Assembly: GCA_012727895.1 (NCBI GenBank)
Contig: JAAYGG010000053.1
Location: 1 to 35,921 of the forward strand
Reading direction: 5' to 3'
DNA from: Bacillota bacterium
GTDB taxonomy: Bacteria > Bacillota > UBA4882 > UBA10575
DNA length: 35,921 nucleotides
Of the stretch, positions 16,920 through 32,137 are shown in pieces. The stretch's first letter is position 1, and each line of letters opens with the position of its first letter. The notes below the pieces were generated by a model. The model was not told where the DNA came from and did not search any database. It saw only the letters and a program-made list of their open reading frames with translations. Both the position numbers and the translations under genes were made by a program.

Positions 16920-16970
16920 GCAAACACTGTTAATCTCCCCGTGTTTGGCCGTATTTGGAGGAGGCTGGGT

Positions 16971-17966
16971 ATGCAGAGGATCCTGTTTGTTTGTACTGGT
17001 AACACCTGCCGGAGTCCGATGGCCGCAGGCCTTTTCGCCAAGATACTGCAGGAGAAAGGGGTAACGGGGGTTGAAATAACCTCGGCGGGCCTGGCCGCCG
17101 TCGACGGCGCGCCCGCTTCAGCCGAAGCTATCGAAGCAATGCGCAGGGCAGGGGTGGATCTCACCGGCCACCGGGCGCGCCGGTTGACCCGGGAGATGGC
17201 CCTCGCCGCAGACCTGGTGCTGACCATGACCCGCCGGCAAAAAGAGGCGGTTCTGGCTTTGGCCCCGGAAGCCGGGGAAAAAATCTTCACCCTGACGGAA
17301 TTGGCCGGCCGCATTGCTGCGGGCACAGCCGGCGGCCGGGAGGGTGACCCGAAAACGCAGGGTGCAGAAGGGATGGAAACAACAGAAGAAAACCGGCAGG
17401 TGCAGGGGGATATCCCGGACCCCTTCGGGGGTGACCTGGAAACATATATCGCCACTGCCCGCCAGATTGAGAGGTGGTTGCTAATGATTGCTGACGGAAT
17501 TACAGGAAAAAACCAGCAACGCTTAAAGATCGCGGTTGCTTCCGACCATGCCGGCTATCCTCTGAAAGAGGAGATTGTCCGGTTTTTGGCGGAACGGGGT
17601 TTTGACTACCATGATTTCGGGGTCTATTCGCCGGAATCGGTGGATTATACGGATCAGGCGGCATTGGTCGCACGCAAGGTGGCAGCAGGCGAATATGACC
17701 GGGGGATCCTGGTTTGCGGCACGGGCATCGGGGTTTCCATCGCCGCCAATAAAATCAAGGGGATCAGGGCCGCCCTCTGTCATGACGTCTTTTCCGCGCA
17801 GATGGCCAGGAAACATAATGACAGTAACATCTTAACCCTGGGCGCCCGGGTAATTGGCGTGGGGCTGGCCTTGGCGATTGTCGAGAATTATCTGGCCACC
17901 GAATTCGAGGGCGGCCGCCACCAAAGAAGGGTTGAGAAGATCAGCCAACTGGAAGGAGAAGGCTGA
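16971..17966 (+). CDS. rpiB: Fused protein arginine phosphatase-like (YwlE) and ribose-5-phosphate isomerase B
   Basis: One frame of 331 residues encodes two enzymes. Residues 1-165 are a low-molecular-weight phosphatase with P-loop C8-T-G-N-T12-C-R14-SP and the catalytic aspartate D150 in PDPFGG. Threonine at position 12 is the residue that makes B. subtilis YwlE specific for phosphoarginine. A Gly/Glu-rich insert (about 118-145) precedes D150. Residues about 182-331 are RpiB: VASDHAGYPLKEEI, the catalytic C249 in CGTGIGVS, and CHDVFSAQMARKHND. ATG at 16971 follows GGAGGAGG. An internal in-frame ATG at 17484, with GAGGTGG 6 bases before it, could also give RpiB alone. In B. subtilis ywlE and ywlF are adjacent but separate. 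Confidence 0.93.
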   Translation: MQRILFVCTGNTCRSPMAAGLFAKILQEKGVTGVEITSAGLAAVDGAPASAEAIEAMRRAGVDLTGHRARRLTREMALAADLVLTMTRRQKEAVLALAPEAGEKIFTLTELAGRIAAGTAGGREGDPKTQGAEGMETTEENRQVQGDIPDPFGGDLETYIATARQIERWLLMIADGITGKNQQRLKIAVASDHAGYPLKEEIVRFLAERGFDYHDFGVYSPESVDYTDQAALVARKVAAGEYDRGILVCGTGIGVSIAANKIKGIRAALCHDVFSAQMARKHNDSNILTLGARVIGVGLALAIVENYLATEFEGGRHQRRVEKISQLEGEG

Positions 17967-19691: not shown

Positions 19692-21803
19692 ATGGCAGGT
19701 AACGGCCTGGTCAGTTTCTTCACTGTTCTAGTGCCAATCGGAGCGCTTTTGGCAATTATTTTTGCCGGTTATTTTTATAAGAAGATTTCCGGCTTTTCCG
19801 AGGGGACGGAGAAAATGAAAGAGATCGCCGAGGCCATCCGGATCGGCGCCCGGGCTTACCTTCGCCGGCAGTACCGGGGGGTTGCCATCTTTTTCGTGGT
19901 TATGTTTGCGATCCTCCTGGCTCTCGGCTTTGCCGGCGGCGGGTCCCTGGGGGCTCTCTTTGTGCCCCTGGCCTTTTTAACCGGTGGTTTTTGCTCCGGT
20001 TTGGCCGGGTTTATCGGTATGACCACGGCAACCATGGCTAACAGCAGAACCGCCAATGCCGCCCAGAAGAGTCTCGATGACGGCCTGCGGGTGGCTTTCC
20101 AGAGCGGGGCGGTTATGGGCCTGATCGTGGTCGGCCTCGGCCTGCTGGCCATTAGCTGCTGGTACTTATTATTGTCCGCCTTCGGCAAGAGCATACCGGA
20201 GATCTCCACCATCCTCTTGAACTTTGGGATGGGCGCCAGTTCCATGGCCCTCTTTGCCAGGGTCGGCGGGGGGATCTACACTAAAGCCGCTGATGTCGGT
20301 GCCGATCTGGTGGGGAAGGTAGAAGCGGGGATTCCCGAGGACGACCCGAGAAACCCGGCGGTAATCGCGGATAACGTCGGGGATAACGTGGGCGATGTGG
20401 CCGGGATGGGGGCCGATCTCTACGAGTCCTACGTGGGGGCGATTGTCGCCGCGGCGATTTTAGGGTTTTCGGCTTTCTCCGGGGATCTGGCGCTCAGAGG
20501 TTTCTTACTCCCCTTCCTCCTGGCGGCCTTCGGGATTTTGGCTTCGATTATCGGCGCTTTCTTTGTCCGGGTTAAAGAAGGCGAGGACCAAGTCCTTCTG
20601 AAAGCCTTGCGGCGGGGAGTCAACGTTGCCGCCATAATAATGGTGATTGCCAGTTATTTCGGCGTCCGCCTGCTTTTGGGTGCGGAGTATATTAAAGTCT
20701 TCGTTGCCATCATCGGCGGTTTGCTGGCCGGGGTAATCATCGGCCGGTTGTCGGAATACTACACATCAGCGGAGTATAAGCCCACCCAGCAGGTGGCGGA
20801 GACGGCGGTCACCGGTCCGGCCACCGTAATTATTGACGGGCTTTCGGTGGGGATGCTTTCCACCGTCTTCCCGGCAGTGGTTGTGGCCGCTGTGATCTTC
20901 ATCAGTTATTATCTTACCGGCGGCGGCGATTTTAGCCTTGGCCTCTACGGGATCGCCATCTCTGCGGTGGGAATGCTCTCCACCCTCGGGATTACCCTTG
21001 CCACCGATGCCTATGGGCCGGTGGCCGATAATGCCGGCGGGATTGCGGAAATGGCCGGTTTGCCCGCGGAAGTCCGGAGCCGGACCGATGCCCTCGACGC
21101 GTTGGGCAATACCACCGCGGCAACGGGTAAAGGGTTTGCCATCGGTTCTGCAGCCTTGACGGCTTTGGCTTTGATTGCCACTTATACCCAGCAGGTGCAG
21201 ATGATCGATCCTTCCTTCCAATTTAACCTGAGTCTCACCAACCCCCAAGTGCTGATCGGTCTCCTGATCGGCGGGATGTTGCCCTTTGTCTTCTGCTCCC
21301 TGACCATGAAGGCGGTGGGGCGCGCCGCCCAGAAGATCGTGGTGGAGGTCCGCCGCCAGTTCAAGGAGATCGCCGGTTTGATGGAAGGGAAGGCCAAACC
21401 GGATTATGCCCGCAGCGTTGATATTTGTGCCCAGGCGGCGCAGGCGGAGATGATTGTCCCGACGTTGATTGCGATCCTTGCCCCGATTATCGTCGGCTTG
21501 TTGCTCGGGGTTAACGCGGTCACGGGTCTTCTGGCCGGTTCCACAGTGGTTGGTTTTATGATGGCCGTGATGATGGCCAATTCCGGCGGGAGTTGGGACA
21601 ATGCCAAAAAATACATTGAAGAAGGGAATTTGGGAGGTAAGGGATCCGATGCCCACAAGGCGGCTGTAGTTGGGGATACTGTTGGCGACCCCTTCAAAGA
21701 TACCTCCGGGCCGTCATTAAATATCCTGATTAAATTGGTATCCATGGTTTCGCTGGTCTTTGCCGCCTTTACCCTCGCCAATTCCCTGGCTAATCTCCTC
21801 TAG
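19692..21803 (+). CDS. hppA: Membrane ion-pumping pyrophosphatase, K+-dependent type
   Basis: The enzyme pumps H+ or Na+ across the membrane using PPi hydrolysis. The 703-residue protein is full length with about 16 membrane segments. The active-site loops are visible: GADLVGKVEAGIPEDDPRNP, NPAVIADNVGDNVGDVAGMGADLYES, TDAYGPVADNAGGIAEM and GDTVGDPFKDTSGPSLN. Alanine A476 in GNTTAATGKG marks the K+-dependent subfamily (K+-independent enzymes have Lys). The ion-gate residues D242, E245 and S246 match the Na+-pump/K+-dependent H+-pump pattern, so the ion is undecided. The ribosome site is AAAAGGAGG. It has its own terminators on both sides. Confidence 0.97.
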   Translation: MAGNGLVSFFTVLVPIGALLAIIFAGYFYKKISGFSEGTEKMKEIAEAIRIGARAYLRRQYRGVAIFFVVMFAILLALGFAGGGSLGALFVPLAFLTGGFCSGLAGFIGMTTATMANSRTANAAQKSLDDGLRVAFQSGAVMGLIVVGLGLLAISCWYLLLSAFGKSIPEISTILLNFGMGASSMALFARVGGGIYTKAADVGADLVGKVEAGIPEDDPRNPAVIADNVGDNVGDVAGMGADLYESYVGAIVAAAILGFSAFSGDLALRGFLLPFLLAAFGILASIIGAFFVRVKEGEDQVLLKALRRGVNVAAIIMVIASYFGVRLLLGAEYIKVFVAIIGGLLAGVIIGRLSEYYTSAEYKPTQQVAETAVTGPATVIIDGLSVGMLSTVFPAVVVAAVIFISYYLTGGGDFSLGLYGIAISAVGMLSTLGITLATDAYGPVADNAGGIAEMAGLPAEVRSRTDALDALGNTTAATGKGFAIGSAALTALALIATYTQQVQMIDPSFQFNLSLTNPQVLIGLLIGGMLPFVFCSLTMKAVGRAAQKIVVEVRRQFKEIAGLMEGKAKPDYARSVDICAQAAQAEMIVPTLIAILAPIIVGLLLGVNAVTGLLAGSTVVGFMMAVMMANSGGSWDNAKKYIEEGNLGGKGSDAHKAAVVGDTVGDPFKDTSGPSLNILIKLVSMVSLVFAAFTLANSLANLL

Positions 21804-21891: not shown

Positions 21892-22566
21892 GTGCTGCGA
21901 CGGTTGAGAAATTTATTCTTCGCCGGCCTGTTATTATTCGTGCCGGTGATCGTCACTATTAACCTGGTTAGGTTGGGCTTTCTCTGGCTCGATGGTTTCC
22001 TCGCGGAACTGGTAAAGAAGGTTCTCGGCCGTCACATCCCCGGCCTGGGCCTCCTGGTGATGCTTTTTTTAATCCTCATAACGGGGTTTGTCGCCACCAA
22101 TTTCCTGGGGAAAAGGCTGGTGGCCTTCTTTGAACGGATGGTCCGGCGGATCCCCTTGGTCGGGGGGATTTACGGTACGATCAAGCAGATTACCGAAGCC
22201 CTGACCACCAGGGATAAGACGGTTTTCCGTTCTGTGGTTGCGGTGGAGTTTCCCCGGCCGGGGGTTTACAGCGCCGGCTTTTTGATTGGCGACCCGCCGG
22301 CTGATCTGAAAGAAAATAGCAAAAAACAGCTCTTGGCCGTCTTCGTCCCGACCGTCCCCAACCCCACCAGCGGCTACCTGATGAATTTCCCGGCGGATGA
22401 GGTTATACCCCTTGATCTGACAGTTGAGGAAGCCCTACGTTATTTTGTTTCCATTGGAATGATTATTCCGGCCGGCCCCTACCGGGAAAAAGCCGGCTCT
22501 AGAAACAACTCACAGGCACAGGAGAGTTCAGGTGCTGTTGGACAAGGAATAAAGAATAAGTTATAA
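21892..22566 (+). CDS. DUF502-family membrane protein
   Basis: The 224-residue protein has two hydrophobic hairpin segments near the N-terminus (LRNLFFAGLLLFVPVIVTI and LGLLVMLFLILITGFVATN) and a soluble beta-rich C-terminal half. RIPLVGGIYGTIKQI, VFRSVVAVEFPRPGVYSAGFL and FVPTVPNPTSGYLM are the family's recognisable segments. Function of DUF502 is unknown. The start is GTG, supported by GGAGTGAGGAGGGAG upstream. The last 60 bases of the gene contain a strong promoter reading into the next genes. Confidence 0.9.
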   Translation: MLRRLRNLFFAGLLLFVPVIVTINLVRLGFLWLDGFLAELVKKVLGRHIPGLGLLVMLFLILITGFVATNFLGKRLVAFFERMVRRIPLVGGIYGTIKQITEALTTRDKTVFRSVVAVEFPRPGVYSAGFLIGDPPADLKENSKKQLLAVFVPTVPNPTSGYLMNFPADEVIPLDLTVEEALRYFVSIGMIIPAGPYREKAGSRNNSQAQESSGAVGQGIKNKL

Positions 22567-22567
22567 T
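22539..22567 (+). promoter_or_regulatory. Promoter for the dehydrogenase/B12-protein pair
   Basis: TGGACA (22539-22544, 5 of 6) and TATAAT (22562-22567, perfect) are 17 bases apart. The -10 overlaps the stop codon of the DUF502 gene. Transcription would start near 22574, 114 bases before the next start codon, and pass through the hairpin at 22608. Confidence 0.7.
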
Positions 22568-22607: not shown

Positions 22608-22634
22608 GGCCGCCAAACCCGACGGCCTTTTTTT
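22608..22634 (+). terminator. Terminator or attenuator hairpin upstream of the dehydrogenase gene
   Basis: GGCCG (22608-22612) and CGGCC (22623-22627) form a short GC stem with a 10-base loop, followed by seven T residues. Further CCGGCCGCCGGCC bases just upstream allow alternative stems. It could simply end the DUF502 transcript; but because a promoter lies only about 40-70 bases before it, it may instead attenuate the downstream genes. Confidence 0.65.
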
Positions 22635-22687: not shown

Positions 22688-23815
22688 ATGAAAAAGACGA
22701 CAGCAAAAAAAAGTGAAGCCCGCCCGCGTTTTTGCGTCCTGGGCGCCGGCCACGGGGGAATGGCCATGGCCGGCCACCTTGCGCTTATGGGTTATGAGGT
22801 TAACCTCTATAACCGCTCTGCCGACCGGATCGAACCCATCGCCTTGATGGGCGGGATTCAACTCTCCGGGGTTATTGAAGGTTTTGGCCAGGTTAAGCTG
22901 GCGACCGACGACATTGAAGCCGCCGTCGACGGGGTGGATATACTAATGGTGGTGGTTCCTGCCACCGGGCACCGGTTTATCGCCGAGAAAGTGGCACCTT
23001 TTTTACGGGACGGCCAGGTCATCGTCTTGAATCCCGGCCGGACCGGCGGCGCCCTGGAGGTAAAAAGCGTCTTTCGGGCCATGAAGGTCAAGGCCGACGT
23101 GATTATCGGCGAGGCCCAAACCCTCTTGTATGCCAGTAGGAATATCAATCCGGCCCAGGTGAAGATCTTCGGGATGAAAAACACCATTCCCGTTGCGGCT
23201 TTGCCGGGGCAGAGAACCGCGGAATTGGTCAAGATTTTGCGTGAGGTTTACCCGCAGTTTGTCCCCGGGGATAATGTTTTAAAGACCAGCTTGAATAATA
23301 TCGGCGCCGTCTTCCACCCGGCGCTGACCGTCTTGAATGCCGCGCGGATTGAATCAACCAGGGGCGAGTTTCAGTTTTACATGGAAGGGATCACCCCCTC
23401 CGTGGCCCATGTCCTCGAGGCGGTGGATGAGGAAAGGATGGCGGTCGCCGCCGCCCTGGGGTTCAGGGGGATGTCGGCGCGGGAATGGCTCTATATGGCC
23501 TATGATGCGCCCGGCAGAACCTTGTACGAGGCAATCCAGAATAACCACGGTTATAAGGGGATTAACGCCCCGGCTATTATTGACCACCGGTACTTATGGG
23601 AGGATGTCCCGATGAGCCTGGTCCCCATCGCTTCCCTGGGCGATCATTTAGAGACGCCGACCCCGACAATAAAGGCGATTATCCACATGGCTTCCCTGCT
23701 GAATCAGACCGACTACTGGAGTATCGGGCGGACAGTGGAGAAGATGGGCCTGGCCGGGTTTACGGTAGCGCAGATCCGCCGCCTGGCGCTGGAGGGTGAT
23801 CCCGGCAATGGCTAA
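22688..23815 (+). CDS. Opine-dehydrogenase-fold NAD(P)-dependent enzyme
   Basis: The 375-residue protein has an N-terminal Rossmann domain (VLGAGHGGMAMAGHLALMGYEV with G19-x-G21-x2-G24) and a C-terminal octopine/nopaline dehydrogenase-type helical domain. NNIGAVFHPALTVLNAARIE places H210 at the position of the catalytic histidine of octopine dehydrogenase, followed by FYMEGITPSVAHVLEAVDEERMAVAAALG. Family members join an amino acid and a 2-oxo acid reductively, or run the reverse. The substrate here is unknown. ATG at 22688 follows AAAGGGG. It overlaps the B12-binding gene by 8 bases, so the two probably act in one pathway, perhaps amino-acid catabolism; that is inference. Confidence 0.87.
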   Translation: MKKTTAKKSEARPRFCVLGAGHGGMAMAGHLALMGYEVNLYNRSADRIEPIALMGGIQLSGVIEGFGQVKLATDDIEAAVDGVDILMVVVPATGHRFIAEKVAPFLRDGQVIVLNPGRTGGALEVKSVFRAMKVKADVIIGEAQTLLYASRNINPAQVKIFGMKNTIPVAALPGQRTAELVKILREVYPQFVPGDNVLKTSLNNIGAVFHPALTVLNAARIESTRGEFQFYMEGITPSVAHVLEAVDEERMAVAAALGFRGMSAREWLYMAYDAPGRTLYEAIQNNHGYKGINAPAIIDHRYLWEDVPMSLVPIASLGDHLETPTPTIKAIIHMASLLNQTDYWSIGRTVEKMGLAGFTVAQIRRLALEGDPGNG

Positions 23816-25460
23816 GAAGATTGTCGGCGCCACCCTTGGCCATTGTGTGCATGTGGCCGGAGTCTTGAATTTTCTCCGCCTGGCGGAAGCCTGTGGTTAC
23901 CAAACAACTTTTTTGGGTGTGGGCCGCAGCGAGCAGGAGCTCATCGGGGCCTTACGGGAAGAGGACCCGGAATACCTGGCCGTCAGTTACCGGCTCACGC
24001 CCGAAGTGGCGCGGAATCTTTTTGCCTCCCTAAAAAACAGCCTGCAAGAAGCGGGCTTACTCCATAAGAAGCTCCTTTTTGGCGGCACACCTCCTGTTGC
24101 CGCCGAGGCCAGAAAATCCGGTTTGTTCACCGGGGTTTTCAGCGGGGAAGAGGAAGAAGCCGAAATCATCGCTTTTTTGAAAGGACAGGCGGCTGATGGC
24201 AAAGGGGAAAAAAGAAAACCCGCTGCAACCCTTGTCGAACGGATAGAGGAAAAGGCTCCTTACCCGTTGCTCCGGCATCATTTCGGCCTGCCCAGCCTGG
24301 AAGAGACCATCGCCGGCGTTGCCCGCCTGGCCGAAGCCGGGGTCCTTGATGTCGTCTCCCTGGGCCCGGACCAAAACGCCCAGGAAAGTTTCTTTCGCCC
24401 GGAGGAGATGGACCCGGCGCAAGACGGCGCCGGCGGGGTCCCAATCCGCAGGGAGGAGGATCTGGCCGCTATTTACCGGGCTTCCCGGAGGGGGAATTTT
24501 CCCCTGCTCCGTTGTTACAGCGGGACCCGGGATTTAATCTTATGGGGGGAGATGACAGCCAGGACAATCAAGAACGCCTGGGGGGCCGTGCCCTTATTCT
24601 GGTACAACCGGCTGGACGGCAGGTCCAACCGGCCGCTCCGGGAGGCCATCGCCGAAAACCAAAAGGCCATGGCCTGGTATGCCGCGCAGGGGATTCCTCT
24701 CGAGGTTAATGAGGCTCACCACTGGAGCCTGCGGGGCGCCCCCGATTCCGTGGCGGTCGCCGCTTTCTACCTGGCGGCTTATAATGCCAAAAAAGCGGGA
24801 GTCCAGGATTACGTCGCCCAGTTGATGCTGAACAACCCCCCCGGGACCAGCGGCGTAATGGATCTAGGAAAATGCCTGGCAAAAATGGCCTTGATTGAGC
24901 AGCTGGCCGGGCCCGACTTCCGGATCCACCGCCAGATCCGGGCCGGGTTGGCGAGTCTCTCGGTGAAACCGGCGGTGGCCAAGGGGCAACTGGCGGCTTC
25001 GACCCTTTTGGGGCTGGCCCTCAAGCCGGAGATCATCCACGTGGTGGCCTTCTGCGAGGCCGACCATGCCGCCACTCCCGACGATATCATTGAAAGTTGC
25101 GGCATCGTCCAGGGGGTTCTGAAAAACAGCCTTTTCGATGCGCCGGAGATGGCGGCGGACCCCACTGTCCAAGCACGCCGCGACGAACTGGTCGCTGAGG
25201 CCGGATTAATCCTCGAGGCGATCCGGGGCATGGCCCGGCCGGGGACCGACGACCCGTTGACGGACCCAGTGGTCTTGCAGGAGGCGGTCCGCACCGGGAT
25301 CCTTGATGCGCCGCAATTGCAAGGGAACCCGGAAGCGGCCGGTCGCGTGCGGACAGGGATGATTGACGGCGCCTGCCGGGCCCTCTCCGCCGACGGGCGG
25401 CGGGTGCTCAGCGAAGAGGAACGGCTGCAGCAGGCGGTCAGCGGACGGCTGCACGGATAA
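23808..25460 (+). CDS. B12-binding-domain protein with a mutase-like barrel, substrate unknown
   Basis: The 550-residue protein starts with a cobalamin-binding Rossmann domain (about 1-130): IVGATLGHCVHVAGVLNF aligns with the DxHxxG B12 loop as C13-x-H15-x2-G18, followed by GYQTTFLG and LLFGGTPPVAAEA. The histidine ligand is kept but the aspartate is replaced by cysteine. Residues about 150-420 look like a TIM barrel of the B12 mutase kind (VLDVVSLGPDQNAQESFF, EVNEAHHWSLRGAPDSVAVA, MLNNPPGTSGVMDLGKCLAKM). A helical tail (DPLTDPVVLQEAVRTGILDAPQ) ends it. I infer an adenosyl- or methyl-cobalamin-dependent enzyme but cannot name the reaction. ATG at 23808 has GGAGGG upstream and overlaps the dehydrogenase gene. 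Confidence 0.75.
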   Translation: MAKKIVGATLGHCVHVAGVLNFLRLAEACGYQTTFLGVGRSEQELIGALREEDPEYLAVSYRLTPEVARNLFASLKNSLQEAGLLHKKLLFGGTPPVAAEARKSGLFTGVFSGEEEEAEIIAFLKGQAADGKGEKRKPAATLVERIEEKAPYPLLRHHFGLPSLEETIAGVARLAEAGVLDVVSLGPDQNAQESFFRPEEMDPAQDGAGGVPIRREEDLAAIYRASRRGNFPLLRCYSGTRDLILWGEMTARTIKNAWGAVPLFWYNRLDGRSNRPLREAIAENQKAMAWYAAQGIPLEVNEAHHWSLRGAPDSVAVAAFYLAAYNAKKAGVQDYVAQLMLNNPPGTSGVMDLGKCLAKMALIEQLAGPDFRIHRQIRAGLASLSVKPAVAKGQLAASTLLGLALKPEIIHVVAFCEADHAATPDDIIESCGIVQGVLKNSLFDAPEMAADPTVQARRDELVAEAGLILEAIRGMARPGTDDPLTDPVVLQEAVRTGILDAPQLQGNPEAAGRVRTGMIDGACRALSADGRRVLSEEERLQQAVSGRLHG

Positions 25461-25664: not shown

Positions 25665-25976
25665 TTGGCCGGAGAGGTTTTGGAACTGATTGCGGCAACG
25701 GAGAAGAAAGCCAGGGAGATAAAGAAAGAAGCTGAAGAAGAGGTTAAAAGCCTCCTGGCCCGGGTAAAGGAAGAAGGCGAGAAACTGCTGGCCGAGACGA
25801 AGGAAGAGAGCCTGCGGGCCGGGGAGAAGTTGCAAAACCTGGTCAGGGCGGAGACAGATGCGGAAATAGCAAAGGAAAAAGTCCAGTTTGACCAGGAAAA
25901 GGATGAATTGATCAACAGGGCGAGACAGCGCATGGATGAGACCATACAATGGGCAATGGAGAGGATTGTGAAGTAA
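25665..25976 (+). CDS. V/A-type ATPase subunit H/G (peripheral stalk)
   Basis: The 103-residue protein is almost entirely a charged coiled coil (EKKAREIKKEAEEEVKSLLARV), as expected for the G/H peripheral-stalk subunit, which pairs with subunit E and holds the catalytic head against rotation. The start is TTG, chosen because GGGGAGG lies 7 bases before it and no other start fits. It is the first gene of the operon and its stop abuts the subunit I start. The position matches ahaH of the archaeal-type order H-I-K-E-C-F-A-B-D. Confidence 0.85.
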   Translation: MAGEVLELIAATEKKAREIKKEAEEEVKSLLARVKEEGEKLLAETKEESLRAGEKLQNLVRAETDAEIAKEKVQFDQEKDELINRARQRMDETIQWAMERIVK

Positions 25977-27959
25977 ATGGCCGTAGCAAGAACGAAAAAG
26001 ATCCGGGTGGCCGGCCGTCTCCATCACCGGGCAGCGGTCCTCAAGCGCCTGCAGGAATTGGGTTTCGTCGAGATCGAAACCGGCAAGGCTCTCCCGCCGG
26101 CGGACGGGAAGTGGCATCCCACCGGTGATGCCCAGGAGCAGGCGGCTTTGGAAGGTGAATTGGTGGAGATTACCGCCGCCCTGGCCGTGCTGGACCGTTT
26201 CCACCCGGTACGCCCCACCTTCATTCAGCAGTTTAGCGGGATAAAGACCATGATGACCCCGGCCGAGTACCAAAATTGCCTGGCCCGGGAGGATGAGGCT
26301 TGGGTCGCAATAAAGCTCTGCCGCCGGTTGGGTGAAGCTTGGGCGGAAAACGAGTCCCGCTTGGGACAATTGGCCGGGCGCATCCAGGAGCTTACACCCT
26401 GGACCGCCCTGGATATCCCCTTATCCGCGGTGCAGAAAAGGGGCCCGCTTTTCCTGCGGTTGATAAAAATCCCCCGCCGCTACAAGGCGGAGTTCTTAAA
26501 AAGCATCGAAGAACTGGAAAAACCCGGGGCCTATTGCGAAGAGGTTTCGACCCTGGGCTCCTCCTCCTATTTCTTTTTAATTTACCGTGAAGAACAGGAG
26601 GAAAAACTCCGCGAAGTCCTGAACGCCTGTGAGGCGCAGGTGGTGGAAGCCGGCGGTGAAGACCGGACCCCCGCAGACCTCCTGGAGGAACTACAGAAAG
26701 AAGAAGCGGAACTCCGGCAAAGGCAGGCCCATCTGGAAGAGGAGATCGCGGTCTTGGCGAAAAAACGCCCGATGTTGCAGGCGCTATACGACGACAAGGC
26801 CAACCGGCTCCGGCGGCTGCAGGTGGCGGGCGAACTCCTCTGTTCCGAGCGGACTTTTTACCTGGAGGGCTGGATCACAGCGAAAAACCTACCCCGTCTC
26901 CGCTCGGTGCTGCGGGATATTTCCCCCACCATCTACCTGGAAGCCGTGGATCCGGAACCGGACGAGGAGGTCCCAGTCGAACTGGAGAACCACCCCTTAA
27001 TCCGCCCCTTCGAAGTGGTGGTTGAGGTTTACGGCAGCCCCAAATATGGCGAGGCTGACCCGACGCCCGCCTTGGCCCCGTTCTTCATTGTCTTCTTCGG
27101 CCTGGCCCTTGCCGACCTCGGTTACGGGCTGGCCCTCGCCGCCCTTTGTTGGTACCTTTTGCGCACAGTCAAGATGGCCGGGATGGCCAAAAAGCTTTTC
27201 ACTCTCTTATTCATGAGCGGGCTCAGCTCGGCCTTTTTTGGTTTTCTCACCGCCGGCGTCTTCGGCGACTTGATTAGCTACACTCCCTTGTGGTTTAATC
27301 CGACCGAAGAACCGACCAGATTGTTGATGGTCGCTTTGGTCCTGGGCGGTGTCCAACTCTACCTGGGGGTGATCCTCAAGGCGGTCGCCCGGATTAAAGC
27401 CGGTCAGTATTGGGAAGCCATCTTTGAGGAGGGTTTATGGCTTCTCTTCCTGACCAGCTTGATCCTTTTGCTGGCTTACAAACCCCTGGGACTCGAGGCC
27501 TATGCCGGGTTCTTCCCCAAACTGGCGGTGGGTTCCGCCATCGCGATCATGCTCTCCAGGGCCCGGGGGGAAGGGCCGTTCTTCAAAAGGTTGCTGCGGA
27601 TCCCGGCAGGGGTCTTTACCCTGTACAACGCCGTCAATTTCTTCAGCGACCTCCTCTCCTACTCCCGTCTGATGGCATTGGGCTTGTCCGGGGCCATCAT
27701 CGGCCAGGTCATCAATTTCTTCGTACGGATGTTTAACCCGAGTTTCCGCAATCCCATCGGCCTCCTGGCCGGGCTGGCGATCTTCTGCGGCGGCCATCTT
27801 TTGAACCTGCTACTGTCGGTGCTCAGCAGTTATGTCCATAACTGCCGGCTGCAGTATATTGAGTTCTTCAACAAGTTTTACGAAGCGGGGGGCAGGCCTT
27901 TCCGCCCCTTGGCTGAACAATACCGTTACATTGAATTGGATGAGAAAGGGGAGTCATGA
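25977..27959 (+). CDS. ntpI: V/A-type ATPase subunit I (stator membrane subunit a)
   Basis: Subunit I holds the ion half-channels beside the K-ring. The 660-residue protein has a cytoplasmic N-terminal half of about 350 residues with two coiled stretches (LLEELQKEEAELRQRQAHLEEEI) and a membrane half with seven or eight segments beginning at PALAPFFIVFFGLALADLGYG. DLLSYSRLMALGLSGAIIGQVIN contains the conserved arginine that faces the rotor carboxylate. The ATG follows the previous stop directly. Its stop overlaps the subunit K start. Confidence 0.95.
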   Translation: MAVARTKKIRVAGRLHHRAAVLKRLQELGFVEIETGKALPPADGKWHPTGDAQEQAALEGELVEITAALAVLDRFHPVRPTFIQQFSGIKTMMTPAEYQNCLAREDEAWVAIKLCRRLGEAWAENESRLGQLAGRIQELTPWTALDIPLSAVQKRGPLFLRLIKIPRRYKAEFLKSIEELEKPGAYCEEVSTLGSSSYFFLIYREEQEEKLREVLNACEAQVVEAGGEDRTPADLLEELQKEEAELRQRQAHLEEEIAVLAKKRPMLQALYDDKANRLRRLQVAGELLCSERTFYLEGWITAKNLPRLRSVLRDISPTIYLEAVDPEPDEEVPVELENHPLIRPFEVVVEVYGSPKYGEADPTPALAPFFIVFFGLALADLGYGLALAALCWYLLRTVKMAGMAKKLFTLLFMSGLSSAFFGFLTAGVFGDLISYTPLWFNPTEEPTRLLMVALVLGGVQLYLGVILKAVARIKAGQYWEAIFEEGLWLLFLTSLILLLAYKPLGLEAYAGFFPKLAVGSAIAIMLSRARGEGPFFKRLLRIPAGVFTLYNAVNFFSDLLSYSRLMALGLSGAIIGQVINFFVRMFNPSFRNPIGLLAGLAIFCGGHLLNLLLSVLSSYVHNCRLQYIEFFNKFYEAGGRPFRPLAEQYRYIELDEKGES

Positions 27960-28414
27960 GCATGGAAGTAATGGTCGGTCTTGCCCTGGGGTATCTTGGG
28001 ATCTTTCTGGCGGTAATGGCGGCGGTAGGTTCGGCGATTGGCACGGGAATTGCCGGAGAGGCGGCTTCCGGAGTGGTGACAGAGGAGCCAACCCGTTTTG
28101 TCCCCGCCCTGGTCCTCCAAGCGCTCCCCGGTACCCAGGGGATCTACGGTTTCGTCGTCGGCTTTCTGCTCCTGGGGAAACTGAGTGTGATCACTACTCC
28201 CGCCCAAGGCTGGATGTTTGTCGTCACCGCCCTCCCGGTTTTCATTGGCGGGCTGCTGTCCGCGATTTACCAGGGAAGAGTGGCGGCGGCCGCCATCAAT
28301 ATGGTGGCAAAACGCCCCGAGGAACTGGCGAAAGGGATCATCTTCGCCGTTGTGGTGGAATTCTACGCCATCCTTTCCTTCCTCGGTTCCTTCCTGATGT
28401 ACCAGCAGATTTAG
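27956..28414 (+). CDS. ntpK: V/A-type ATPase subunit K (rotor ring), Na+-site residues conserved
   Basis: The 152-residue protein has two tandem hairpins of two membrane helices each. Hairpin one includes GSAIGTGIAGEAASG and LPGTQGIYGF; hairpin two includes YQGRVAAAA and VVEFYAIL. Aligned to Enterococcus hirae NtpK, whose Na+ is held by L61, T64, Q65, Q110 and E139 with Y68 nearby, the equivalents are L57, T60, Q61, Q106, E135 and Y64, all offset by exactly 4. Na+ transport is therefore a reasonable inference. Only the second hairpin carries the rotor carboxylate, as usual for V-type K. The ATG overlaps the subunit I stop. Confidence 0.95.
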   Translation: MSMEVMVGLALGYLGIFLAVMAAVGSAIGTGIAGEAASGVVTEEPTRFVPALVLQALPGTQGIYGFVVGFLLLGKLSVITTPAQGWMFVVTALPVFIGGLLSAIYQGRVAAAAINMVAKRPEELAKGIIFAVVVEFYAILSFLGSFLMYQQI

Positions 28415-28420
28415 TGGGGT

Positions 28421-29029
28421 ATGAAAATGCAGGAGTTACAACCGTTACTCGACAGCATTATAGAAGACGCCCGTAAAGAGGCGGCCCAGATCCGGGAGAA
28501 GGGCCGGGCGGAAGCGGAAAAACTACGGGCTGAATACGCAGAAAAAGCCAAACGCCTGCGGGAGGAGATTATCAGCCGCGAGCAGAGGCAGGCGGCGGAG
28601 GAGAAAAACCGCCGGAAAATCCAGGCGAAGATGGAGGCCGGGCGGGAACTTTTGGCAGCCAAAAACCGGCTGGTGGAAGAGATCTTCCAAGCCCTGAAAA
28701 AGCGCCTGGCCGAGATGAAGGACGAGGATTACCGGGAACTCCTCCAGCGGCTTATCCTGGAGGCGGTAGAAACCGGCGATGAAAAGCTGTTTTTCTCCAT
28801 CCCGGACCAGCGCTGGCTGGGGGAGGCATTTTTGGCCGAACTCAACCGGGAACTGGAGAAACAGGGGCGGAAAGGCGCCCTCTCTTACGGGGAAGCGGCA
28901 GCAGAATTAAGCGGCGGCTTTATCCTCCAGCGGGGCAAGGTCGTCCAAAACTTCTCCCTCGAAAACCTGGTGGAGATGAAGAGGGACGAGCTTCTCCCGG
29001 AGATTGGACGCAGGCTCTTTGCGGAGTAA
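28421..29029 (+). CDS. ntpE: V/A-type ATPase subunit E (peripheral stalk)
   Basis: The 202-residue protein has a long charged N-terminal coiled coil (about 1-90; DARKEAAQIREKGRAEAEKL) and a globular C-terminal domain ending LVEMKRDELLPEIGRRLFAE, with the GGFILQRGKVVQNFSLENLVE segment typical of subunit E. It pairs with the H/G subunit to form the stator stalk and caps the A3B3 head. The ATG lies 6 bases after subunit K. A nearby in-frame ATG two codons later is also possible. Confidence 0.92.
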   Translation: MKMQELQPLLDSIIEDARKEAAQIREKGRAEAEKLRAEYAEKAKRLREEIISREQRQAAEEKNRRKIQAKMEAGRELLAAKNRLVEEIFQALKKRLAEMKDEDYRELLQRLILEAVETGDEKLFFSIPDQRWLGEAFLAELNRELEKQGRKGALSYGEAAAELSGGFILQRGKVVQNFSLENLVEMKRDELLPEIGRRLFAE

Positions 29030-29052
29030 ATAAACTGGATGGAGTGAGGATT

Positions 29053-30027
29053 ATGGGCGGTTACACCTATGCCGTTGCCCGTGTCCGGGCCTTGGAAAAC
29101 GGCCTCCTCTCCCCCGGCCAGTGGGAACGGCTGGCAGCGGCGGGAACGCCGGAAGAAGCCTGGCGCGGGCTGGGCGAGACTGTTTACAACCGGTGGATGG
29201 AAAACCGCTCTCTTTACCAATATGAAGAGGTAATCTGGGATGAACTGCGCACTGCCGCGGACCTCCTCCGTGCCCTGATAGAGGAAGGCGGGCGGGCGCA
29301 AGATAGTTTTCTCCTGGCTTATCTTCTAAGGTACGACATGCACAACCTGAAGATCCGCCTTTTGGAGAAGGCCGGGGGCCGGCCGGGAAACCCGGCGCCG
29401 GTCTCCAGGTATGGCCGGGAAAGGGCCGAAAAAATCATGGCCGATCCCCGGTGGACGGAGCGGACCGGCGGGGGAGATCCGTTGGCCCGGGCTGTAATGA
29501 TCTTCGGGGAAAAGGAGTTTCCGGACCCGCAGGAGCTCCAGCGGGCGGTGGACCGCTATTATTACGAGTATATGGCGGAAAAAAGCGGGAAATTCTCCCC
29601 GGCCCTGCGCGAGTTCTGGGCCCTCCTGGTTGACCTCGCCAATCTGCGGATCCTGTTGCGGGTGAAGACCATGGGGAAGGACCGGGATTTTCTCACCCGT
29701 TTTCTCCTCCCTGGCGGGTTGGTGCCGGAGAAAGAATTTCTCCCGGCCCTGGACTGGCCTGTGGAGGAGATCCGGAACTGGTGGTTCTGGCGGCCGGCCG
29801 GGAAAGTCGCCGCCGGGGCCGAGGATTTTTCCACCCTCTGGCGGGTGGAAAGGGCGGCCGGGCAGTTTTTAGCCGGATATTTGGAGCATTTTCGCAGCCA
29901 AGCCTTTGGCGAGGAACCGCTTTTCGCCTATTTTTGGGATAAAGAGCAGGAAGGCAGGAGACTCCGGGTTCTTCTGGCCGCCAAAATCAACAAAATACCG
30001 GCGGCAGAGTGGAAGGAGAGAATCTGA
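29053..30027 (+). CDS. ntpC: V/A-type ATPase subunit C (central stalk-ring connector)
   Basis: The 324-residue, largely helical protein begins YTYAVARVRALENGLLS, matching the V-ATPase C/d family, which links the rotor ring to the D-F shaft. DMHNLKIRLL, SPALREFWALLVDLANLRILLRVK and LFAYFWDKEQEGRRLRVLLAAKINKIP are recognisable family segments. I chose the ATG at 29053 with GGAGTGAGG upstream; a GTG at 29044 lies inside that ribosome site. The stop overlaps the subunit F start. Confidence 0.93.
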   Translation: MGGYTYAVARVRALENGLLSPGQWERLAAAGTPEEAWRGLGETVYNRWMENRSLYQYEEVIWDELRTAADLLRALIEEGGRAQDSFLLAYLLRYDMHNLKIRLLEKAGGRPGNPAPVSRYGRERAEKIMADPRWTERTGGGDPLARAVMIFGEKEFPDPQELQRAVDRYYYEYMAEKSGKFSPALREFWALLVDLANLRILLRVKTMGKDRDFLTRFLLPGGLVPEKEFLPALDWPVEEIRNWWFWRPAGKVAAGAEDFSTLWRVERAAGQFLAGYLEHFRSQAFGEEPLFAYFWDKEQEGRRLRVLLAAKINKIPAAEWKERI

Positions 30028-30371
30028 TGACAAGTTACCGGATGGCCGCGATCGGAGAGGCAGACAGCATCATCGGCTTTCTTGCCCTGGGCGTGGAGAT
30101 CCACCCTGTGACTTCCACCGGTGAAGCCGCCTCCGTTCTGAACAAACTGGTTGATCCTGAAGAAAAATACGGGATTATTTTCATCACCGAGACGGTGGCC
30201 GAAGAGATTATGGACCGGATTACTGCCCTGGGGGAGCGGGCGTTTCCCACTGTTCTCCTGATCCCTTCCAACCAGGGCGGTAAGGGCTATGCTTTTGAAA
30301 GAATCAGGAAAATTGTTGAACGCGCGGTAGGAGCGGATATACTCATGGGGAAAGAGGGGCGTCAGCAATGA
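30027..30371 (+). CDS. ntpF: V/A-type ATPase subunit F (central stalk)
   Basis: The 114-residue Rossmann-like protein ([62 protein letters not shown]) matches subunit F/AhaF, which binds subunit D in the rotor shaft. ATG at 30027 shares a base with the subunit C stop (TGATG), with GGAAGGAGAG upstream. Its stop overlaps the subunit A ATG (ATGA). Gene symbols for this subunit differ between species. Confidence 0.93.
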
Positions 30372-32137
30372 AGAGAGGGAAAATAATCAAAGTATCCGGC
30401 CCCCTGGTCGTAGCCGAGGGGATCCCGGGGATCAGGATGTACGATATCGTACGCGTGAGTGAAAAACGGCTGATTGGCGAGGTTATTGAGATCAGGGGCG
30501 ACCGGTCCTGGATCCAGGTCTACGAAGAAACCACAGGCCTGGGCCCGGGCGAACCGGTGGAGACCACTGGGCAACCGCTCAGCGTTGAGTTGGGGCCGGG
30601 GTTAATCGAAACGATTTACGACGGGATTCAACGGCCCCTGGATGCCATCGCCACCGTGGGGGGAGACAGGATCACCAGGGGGATCGAAGTCCCCGCCCTT
30701 TCCCGGGAGAAGAAATGGGAGTTTACCCCCAGCCTCAGCGAAGGCGCTTTGGTCCAACCCGGCGATATCTTGGGCGTGGTCCAGGAGACCACCCTGGTGG
30801 AACATAGGATCATGGTCCCCCCCGGGGTGGAAGGGCGTCTGGTCCAGATTAAAACAGGGGCCTTTACCGTTGAGGAGACCATCGCCAAAGTGCAGACAAA
30901 AAACGGCATCCGCGAGCTCACACTCATGCAGCGCTGGCCGGTCCGGCGGGAACGGCCGTACCGGGAAAAACTGGCGCCTTCCCAGCCGCTGACTACAGGG
31001 CAAAGGATTATTGATACCTTCTTCCCCGTAGCCCTGGGCGGGACGGCGGCCATCCCCGGGCCCTTTGGCAGCGGGAAGACCGTTGTCCAGCACCAATTGG
31101 CCAAGTGGGCCAGTGCCGACATCATCGTCTACGTCGGCTGCGGCGAGCGGGGTAACGAGATGACCGACGTTTTGAATGAATTCCCGCGCCTGCAAGACCC
31201 CAAATCCGGGGAACCGTTGATGAAAAGAACGGTGCTGGTGGCCAATACCTCCGACATGCCGGTGGCCGCCAGGGAGGCCTCGATCTATACAGGAATCACA
31301 ATAGCCGAGTATTTCCGGGATATGGGCTACAGTGTGGCGATTATGGCCGACTCCACTTCCCGTTGGGCTGAGGCTTTACGGGAGATGTCCGGCCGCCTCG
31401 AAGAGATGCCCGGTGAAGAAGGGTACCCGGCTTACCTCGGTTCACGCCTGGCCGACTTCTACGAACGGGCCGGCCGGGTTACCTGCCTCGGCAGCCCGCA
31501 GCGGGAAGGCAGCCTGACCGCGGTCGGCGCAGTTTCCCCGCCCGGCGGCGACCTTTCCGAACCGGTTACCCAGGCGACCCTCAGGGTGGTCAAGGTCTTT
31601 TGGGGCTTGGATGCCTCGCTGGCCTACCGCCGTCATTTCCCCGCCATTAACTGGCTGAACAGCTATTCCCTGTACGAAGACCGGTTGGATGAATATTACC
31701 GCAAAGAAGTAGGGGAAGAGTGGCTCGCCCTCCGGAACGGGGCCATGCGGCTCCTGCAGGAAGAGGCGGAACTGGAAGAGATCGTCCGTCTCGTCGGGAT
31801 CGATGCCCTTTCCGACCGGGACCAACTGGTCTTGGAGGTCGCCCGTTCAATCCGGGAAGACTTCCTGCACCAAAATGCCTTCCATGAGGTTGATACCTAC
31901 ACCTCCCTTACCAAGCAATACAAGATGCTCCGCCTGGTAATGGCCTTTTACGACGTGGGGCAGAGGTTGTTAAGGGAAGGCGTTTCTTTGACGAAGATCC
32001 GGGACCTCCCCATCAGGGAAGAGATTGGGCGCGCCAAATACCTGCCGGAAGACCGGCTCGCCGAGATCGACCGGCTCTATGACGAACTACAGGCGTATAC
32101 CGGGGAGACCCTGGGCGGAGGTGAAAGCGATGCTTAA
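30368..32137 (+). CDS. ntpA: V/A-type ATPase catalytic subunit A
   Basis: The 589-residue catalytic subunit binds and hydrolyses or makes ATP. It has the N-terminal barrel ([15 protein letters not shown]), the family's non-homologous insertion at about 110-190, the Walker A loop [13 protein letters not shown] (about 229-241), [12 protein letters not shown] with the catalytic glutamate, the Walker B region [17 protein letters not shown], and [24 protein letters not shown]. Length is normal. It overlaps subunit F at the start and subunit B at the end by a few bases, indicating a single co-translated message. Confidence 0.98.

Follow-up and report, generated by a model that had tools for sequence, protein, structure and literature searches.

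An opine dehydrogenase and a fused B12 protein form a widespread gene pair, preceded by c-di-AMP riboswitches in several lineages, and are candidates for the core of an osmolyte pathway

In the window (the whole stretch of DNA analysed, 35,921 nucleotides), a gene for an opine dehydrogenase (ODH) overlaps a gene for a protein in which a B12-binding domain is fused to a mutase-like barrel (here the B12 protein), and across genomes the two are paired far beyond chance, as a real functional unit. We consider it about an even bet (probability roughly 0.5) that this pair is the core of a small, osmotically controlled biosynthetic pathway whose starting point is an acidic amino acid and whose end product is a compatible solute, N-substituted and often amidated. 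What the tools themselves returned are the enzyme classes and, in relatives, the riboswitch matches; the direction, substrates, order of steps and product are our inference. The features of the locus, in positions of the window, are:

22539-22567, + strand: promoter-like site TGGACA-17-TATAAT, sigma-70-like, 11/12, a consensus match only
22608-22634, + strand: terminator-like hairpin GGCCG/CGGCC with T7, whose fold is not better than that of shuffles (z -0.98)
22688-23815, + strand: ODH, a CENDH-like opine dehydrogenase of 375 aa, ATG 22688, TAA 23815; Rossmann domain and PF02317 helical domain
23791-23795, + strand: GGAGG ribosome-binding site of the B12 gene, 12 nt 5' of its start, identified by eye
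23808-23815, + strand: 8-base overlap of the two genes, ATGGCTAA
23808-25460, + strand: B12 protein, fused B12-domain/mutase-barrel, 550 aa, remote GlmE homologue; ATG 23808, TAA 25460
23817-24161, + strand: N-terminal B12-binding domain, residues 4-118, with motif C13-x-H15-x-x-G18 and SYRLT and FGG loops
24216-25433, + strand: putative catalytic TIM barrel, residues 137-542, predicted GlmE fold, without a Pfam or NCBIfam match

The ORF coordinates bear out the 8-base overlap reported in a first-pass annotation of this DNA, and translational coupling across it is likely. That annotation also gave the unit a promoter of its own, which is plausible in view of the sigma-70-like site; against it stand the hairpin located between this site and the start codon and a leader that is not conserved in the family. 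The hairpin could be the end of the DUF502 transcript or an attenuator of the ODH-B12 operon. Within the window's own family no conserved RNA leader was seen, the alignment having no common structure, and a weak-threshold Rfam scan returned chance matches only.

The ODH-B12 unit (22688-25460) lies between a DUF502 gene, which itself follows a membrane pyrophosphatase gene (19692-21803), and a V-type ATPase operon (25665-32137), and the V-ATPase neighbourhood is kept within the window's family. The pyrophosphatase carries the motif GNTTAATGKG, which we take to mark the K+-dependent, often Na+-pumping type, and the V-type ATPase proteolipid carries PGTQG with conserved Q and E, presumably a Na+-binding signature. 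Elsewhere in the window, a c-di-GMP-I riboswitch (340-428, + strand) is followed after 400 bases by a TPP riboswitch (829-936, + strand), and the frame at 16941-17966 appears, from inspection of its translation by eye, to join low-molecular-weight phosphatase-like and RpiB-like domains in an unusual fusion.

Of 61 related genomes, 30 gave a match to the B12 protein, in a few cases to its B12 domain only. A species-wide genome scan yielded at least 544 confirmed candidate stretches of the family, and the best 80 were taken as loci; by record title these come from Bacillota, Bacteroidota, Aminicenantes, Ignavibacteria, Armatimonadota, Planctomycetota, Gemmatimonadota, Spirochaetes and others. 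Among these best 80, an ODH gene detected by tblastn lies directly upstream of the B12 gene in 75 and directly downstream in 3, so that the functional pairing suggested by the first-pass annotation is upheld in 78/80. As for the remaining two loci, ODH is 1.5 kb away in one and none was found in the other, whose stretch ends shortly after the match. Pairwise identities of the ODH and B12 proteins between loci are correlated (r = 0.81, against a permutation maximum of 0.11), a value to which shared host ancestry contributes. No relative was found in the plasmid collection searched.

The types assigned to both genes in the first-pass annotation were right. ODH matches PF02317 (Octopine_DH, E=2.7e-51) and is closest to N-(1-D-carboxylethyl)-L-norvaline dehydrogenase (CENDH, 1bg6; E 5e-82), with similarity over the whole length. 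By alignment, its H210 and D306 correspond to H202 and D297 of CENDH, which we take to be the catalytic pair, each conserved in 95% or more of 65 sequences; judged by these residues, ODH is expected to be active. Opine dehydrogenases couple an amino acid to a 2-oxo acid, normally making the C-N bond reductively, and this normal direction speaks against the earlier proposal that the dehydrogenase oxidizes the product of the rearrangement.

PF02310 (B12-binding) covers residues 4-118 of the B12 protein above cut-off (E=2.8e-08). The barrel of the window protein, about 410 residues, goes unrecognized by Pfam, NCBIfam and PHROGs models; the mutase-like barrel noted earlier is nevertheless supported by an AlphaFold model with a mean pLDDT of 91. 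The top match of this model in both Foldseek (E 1.7e-16) and VIA-align 2 is the glutamate mutase subunit GlmE (1cb7_B), to which the predicted model aligns with Z 32.2 over 377 residues, rmsd 3.2 and 16% identity. Next come lysine 5,6-aminomutase (KamD, Z ~30), ornithine 4,5-aminomutase (OraE, Z ~27) and methylmalonyl-CoA mutase (MCM, Z ~22). Comparison of profiles by hhalign likewise connects the B12 protein with the GlmE family (E 6e-6). Glutamate mutase proper, as represented by PF06368 (Met_asp_mut_E), gave no match to the window protein at cut-off, and one relative scored 25.7 and 27 bits against a cut-off of 26.6. In the B12 domain, H15 and G18 are invariant in 50 sequences, and C13 replaces the classical D of DxHxxG in 49 of them; the classical D is present in L027 (DAHTLG), a distant homologue that is likewise paired. 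A distant second subfamily, about 30% identical and with its own opine dehydrogenase and a classical DxHxxG, was also noticed (L126, 3521-5362, genome G035).

The predicted barrel fold together with the base-off HxxG motif places the B12 protein within the adenosylcobalamin mutase superfamily (GlmE/OraE/KamD/MCM), where its best reading, on the strength of the model, is a carbon-skeleton mutase of the GlmE kind to which a B12 domain is fused. The OraE segment KHGG, which holds the PLP lysine, aligns to a gap in the B12 protein, with no conserved Lys there; in the OraE/KamE aminomutases we take this lysine to be the one a few residues past the HxxG loop. The first-pass annotation had left the choice between a carbon-skeleton and an amino-group rearrangement; because the PLP lysine of the lysine and ornithine aminomutases is missing, the former fits better and a PLP-type amino-group rearrangement is disfavoured. 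The GlmE arginine claw (R66/R100/R149) is not matched one for one in an alignment of low confidence that is weak in its first half, so that the substrate may well not be glutamate. In this same weak alignment the positions of R66 and R149 fall on H158 and Y237, each with an Arg two residues earlier. One operon, in G051, includes an equivalog-level gene for GlmL, the glutamate mutase accessory protein, and a normal GlmE is also present in that genome.

The third gene of the operon is variable and often absent. A frequent one, near the pair in 23 of the best 80 loci, encodes an asparagine-synthetase-like (AsnB-like) protein, and a Ddl-like ATP-grasp gene occurs near the pair in 9; in single clades the neighbour is a TldD/PmbA pair or a Mur-ligase-like gene. 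The TldD/PmbA metalloprotease pair was seen in the Aminicenantes loci L057, L066, L074, L089 and L093, immediately or less than 200 bases after the pair. The N-terminal glutaminase Cys is absent from 18 of the 23 AsnB-like partners, in which the ATP site SGGLDSS is intact. We considered that these partners form a lactam, as in beta-lactam synthetase, a reading favoured by the absent Cys; the Cys is, however, kept in 5/23 and in the G025 copy, which fits ammonia as nucleophile, and a single nucleophile common to all AsnB-like partners is uncertain. The window's genome has one AsnB-like gene, at C120:9169-10533 and unlinked to the pair, which starts MAGIVGI and is 51% identical to the operon-linked type, with orthologues in most members of the family. 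A Ddl-like candidate in the same genome reached only a 35% match and was not taken as a partner.

Regulation supplies the link to osmotic control. With scores comfortably over the gathering threshold, aptamers of the c-di-AMP riboswitch (RF00379) precede the operon in 17 of the 80 loci (L044, L045, L051, L055, L058, L067, L068, L072, L077, L079, L090, L092, L097, L098, L100, L106 and L110), and six further genomes have one at the operon (G021, G024, G025, G028, G029 and G051). Cultured hosts in which the operon comes with this riboswitch include Caldanaerobacter subterraneus and Thermoanaerobacter wiegelii. Fifty whole genomes carrying the B12 gene contain 50 c-di-AMP aptamers, 16 of them at this operon (located through contig ranges, then verified by scanning directly), against about 0.03 expected by our own estimate of chance (50 aptamers x 1.5 kb / 2.7 Mb). 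G025 is the most informative case: its pathway is split between two contigs, with an ODH unit on one and an AsnB-B12 unit on the other, each behind its own c-di-AMP aptamer, and the AsnB-B12 unit is preceded by ablA-ablB, the genes of the osmolyte N-acetyl-beta-lysine. Beside both split units of this genome is a similar amino-acid-binding-protein-like gene (L123, 1449-2372; L131, 2168-3013), and a divergent gene at L131 820-1371 resembles, by eye, a possible K+-channel regulator.

RNAs of the nhaA-I class stand in front of the operon at L053 and L081, in Desantisbacteria and Planctomycete genomes. A census found the class in only 2 of the 50 genomes, each of which has a copy at the operon; this is supporting but thin. 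L053 has a second nhaA-I copy, with an AsnB-like gene and a Na+/H+ exchanger in its vicinity. The nhaA-I class senses Li+ (PMC9646797), and ablA is controlled by c-di-AMP and Na+ riboswitches (PMC9337991).

The window copy has no RF00379 upstream, the window's genome contains no c-di-AMP riboswitch at all, and none of the operons seen in its family has the aptamer; the osmotic link therefore rests on relatives. No cobalamin riboswitch at gathering score precedes the operon in any locus scanned. The c-di-AMP riboswitch in front of the ODH-B12 operon appears to be new here: a search of the open-licence literature for the pair with a riboswitch or an osmolyte returned only PMC2667541, the main ydaO/c-di-AMP papers (Nelson 2013, Block 2010) being outside its scope.

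These observations suggest the following pathway. The B12 protein, by its fold and motif, would bind adenosylcobalamin base-off through H15 and, as glutamate mutase does, would use the 5'-deoxyadenosyl radical to rearrange the carbon skeleton of its substrate, either an amino acid or an amino-dicarboxylate. ODH, in keeping with its family and its His/Asp pair, would then use NAD(P)H to condense a 2-oxo acid with the amine of either the rearranged product or its precursor; an N-(carboxyalkyl) amino acid, in other words an opine, would result. In many lineages an ATP-dependent amide-forming enzyme, mostly asparagine-synthetase-like and elsewhere a D-Ala-D-Ala-ligase-like ATP-grasp protein, may cap a carboxylate, so that the end product would be a less charged, metabolically inert zwitterion. 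In several lineages, the window's not among them, the RNA-family matches imply that the operon's c-di-AMP riboswitch would turn the pathway on at low c-di-AMP, as under osmotic stress.

The main rival to this compatible-solute reading is cell-wall chemistry, in which the pair would make an unusual amino acid or an N-substituted peptidoglycan unit, with Ddl-, Mur- and AsnB-like ligases and c-di-AMP control. The partners do resemble Ddl and a Mur ligase, and AsnB amidates meso-DAP in Bacillus. Since c-di-AMP riboswitches also control cell-wall genes (PMC9337991), regulation alone is no proof of a solute; one such cell-wall case, going by the title of a paper, is in Corynebacterium. We nonetheless regard a role in the wall as unlikely: ablA-ablB beside one unit and the nhaA-I RNAs are signs of solutes and cations, the phyla that have the pair differ greatly in their walls, and no tie to a mur cluster was noticed among the neighbours examined.

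In the second rival, catabolism, the mutase and ODH would obtain energy by breaking down amino acids or opines, much as fermenters do with glutamate mutase, or with ornithine or lysine aminomutase, and the dehydrogenases that go with them. A mutase paired with an NAD-dehydrogenase is known from ornithine and lysine fermentation, the closest folds are those of catabolic mutases, and many hosts are anaerobes; but the partners that recur across phyla are ATP-consuming amide-forming enzymes rather than thiolases or CoA transferases, and osmolytes fit c-di-AMP control better, which makes an energy-yielding route improbable. We give very little credence to a secreted opine metallophore or signal, a metal chelator like staphylopine. 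The last step of opine metallophores is indeed an opine dehydrogenase, yet no nicotianamine-synthase-like gene or exporter was identified in the recurring neighbour clusters, and the riboswitches found respond to osmotic signals rather than to a shortage of metal.

Returning to the compatible-solute reading, we propose more tentatively, and at somewhat less than even odds, that this B12 pathway of many phyla, with c-di-AMP riboswitches in several lineages, makes a new class of compatible solute, namely an opine, amidated or ligated, that derives from a rearranged acidic amino acid, and that in the B12 protein we have a new carbon-skeleton mutase acting on a substrate of its own. It is rare for a new B12-dependent reaction to come to light, and this family, with no less than 544 candidate stretches, stands without assigned chemistry. 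Were an osmolyte made, B12 would be joined to osmotic control, a recurrent target of c-di-AMP riboswitches would be explained, and the search for a metabolite in cultured species of Thermoanaerobacter and Caldanaerobacter would have a definite target.

The first-pass annotation could name no pathway that uses the pair, and we likewise found neither a named pathway nor a characterised member in the literature; its view of the pair as an undescribed system has to be given up. Comparing how bacteria use nickel, cobalt and B12, Zhang et al. (2009) predicted a novel family of B12-dependent proteins. Its members, from 11 bacteria of four phyla, always adjoin an octopine/nopaline dehydrogenase, and in some genomes D-Ala-D-Ala ligase and asparagine synthase are close by (PMC2667541). 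By this description it is the same gene pair, as the B12-binding domain and the adjacent octopine/nopaline dehydrogenase are both found here. That study placed a TIM-barrel-like structure N-terminally, whereas here the B12 domain is N-terminal and the barrel, GlmE-like, is C-terminal; the range found here is far wider, and riboswitch control is added. No later work giving this family a function was found in the open-licence literature.

Among characterised enzymes, glutamate mutase (GlmS and GlmE) shares the barrel fold, the kind of B12 domain, the lack of a PLP site and, in one operon, the GlmL gene; it differs from the B12 protein, which is one fused chain with the B12 domain first, has C for D in DxHxxG, is 16% identical, differs at the arginine positions and has an opine dehydrogenase as partner. 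Ornithine 4,5- and lysine 5,6-aminomutase belong to the same superfamily and also set a B12 mutase beside an NAD-linked dehydrogenase, but they need PLP, the lysine segment for which is absent here, and their dehydrogenases belong to families other than that of ODH. CENDH resembles ODH over its whole length and in its catalytic His and Asp; it is known as a stand-alone enzyme, whereas the ODH gene is tied to a mutase gene. The ablA-ablB and eam osmolyte pathways (PMC9337991) offer a likeness of logic, with an amino-acid mutase leading to an inert amino acid, N-modification in abl and a shared riboswitch class; they use radical-SAM aminomutases and acetylation, where we propose a B12 mutase followed by opine formation and amidation.
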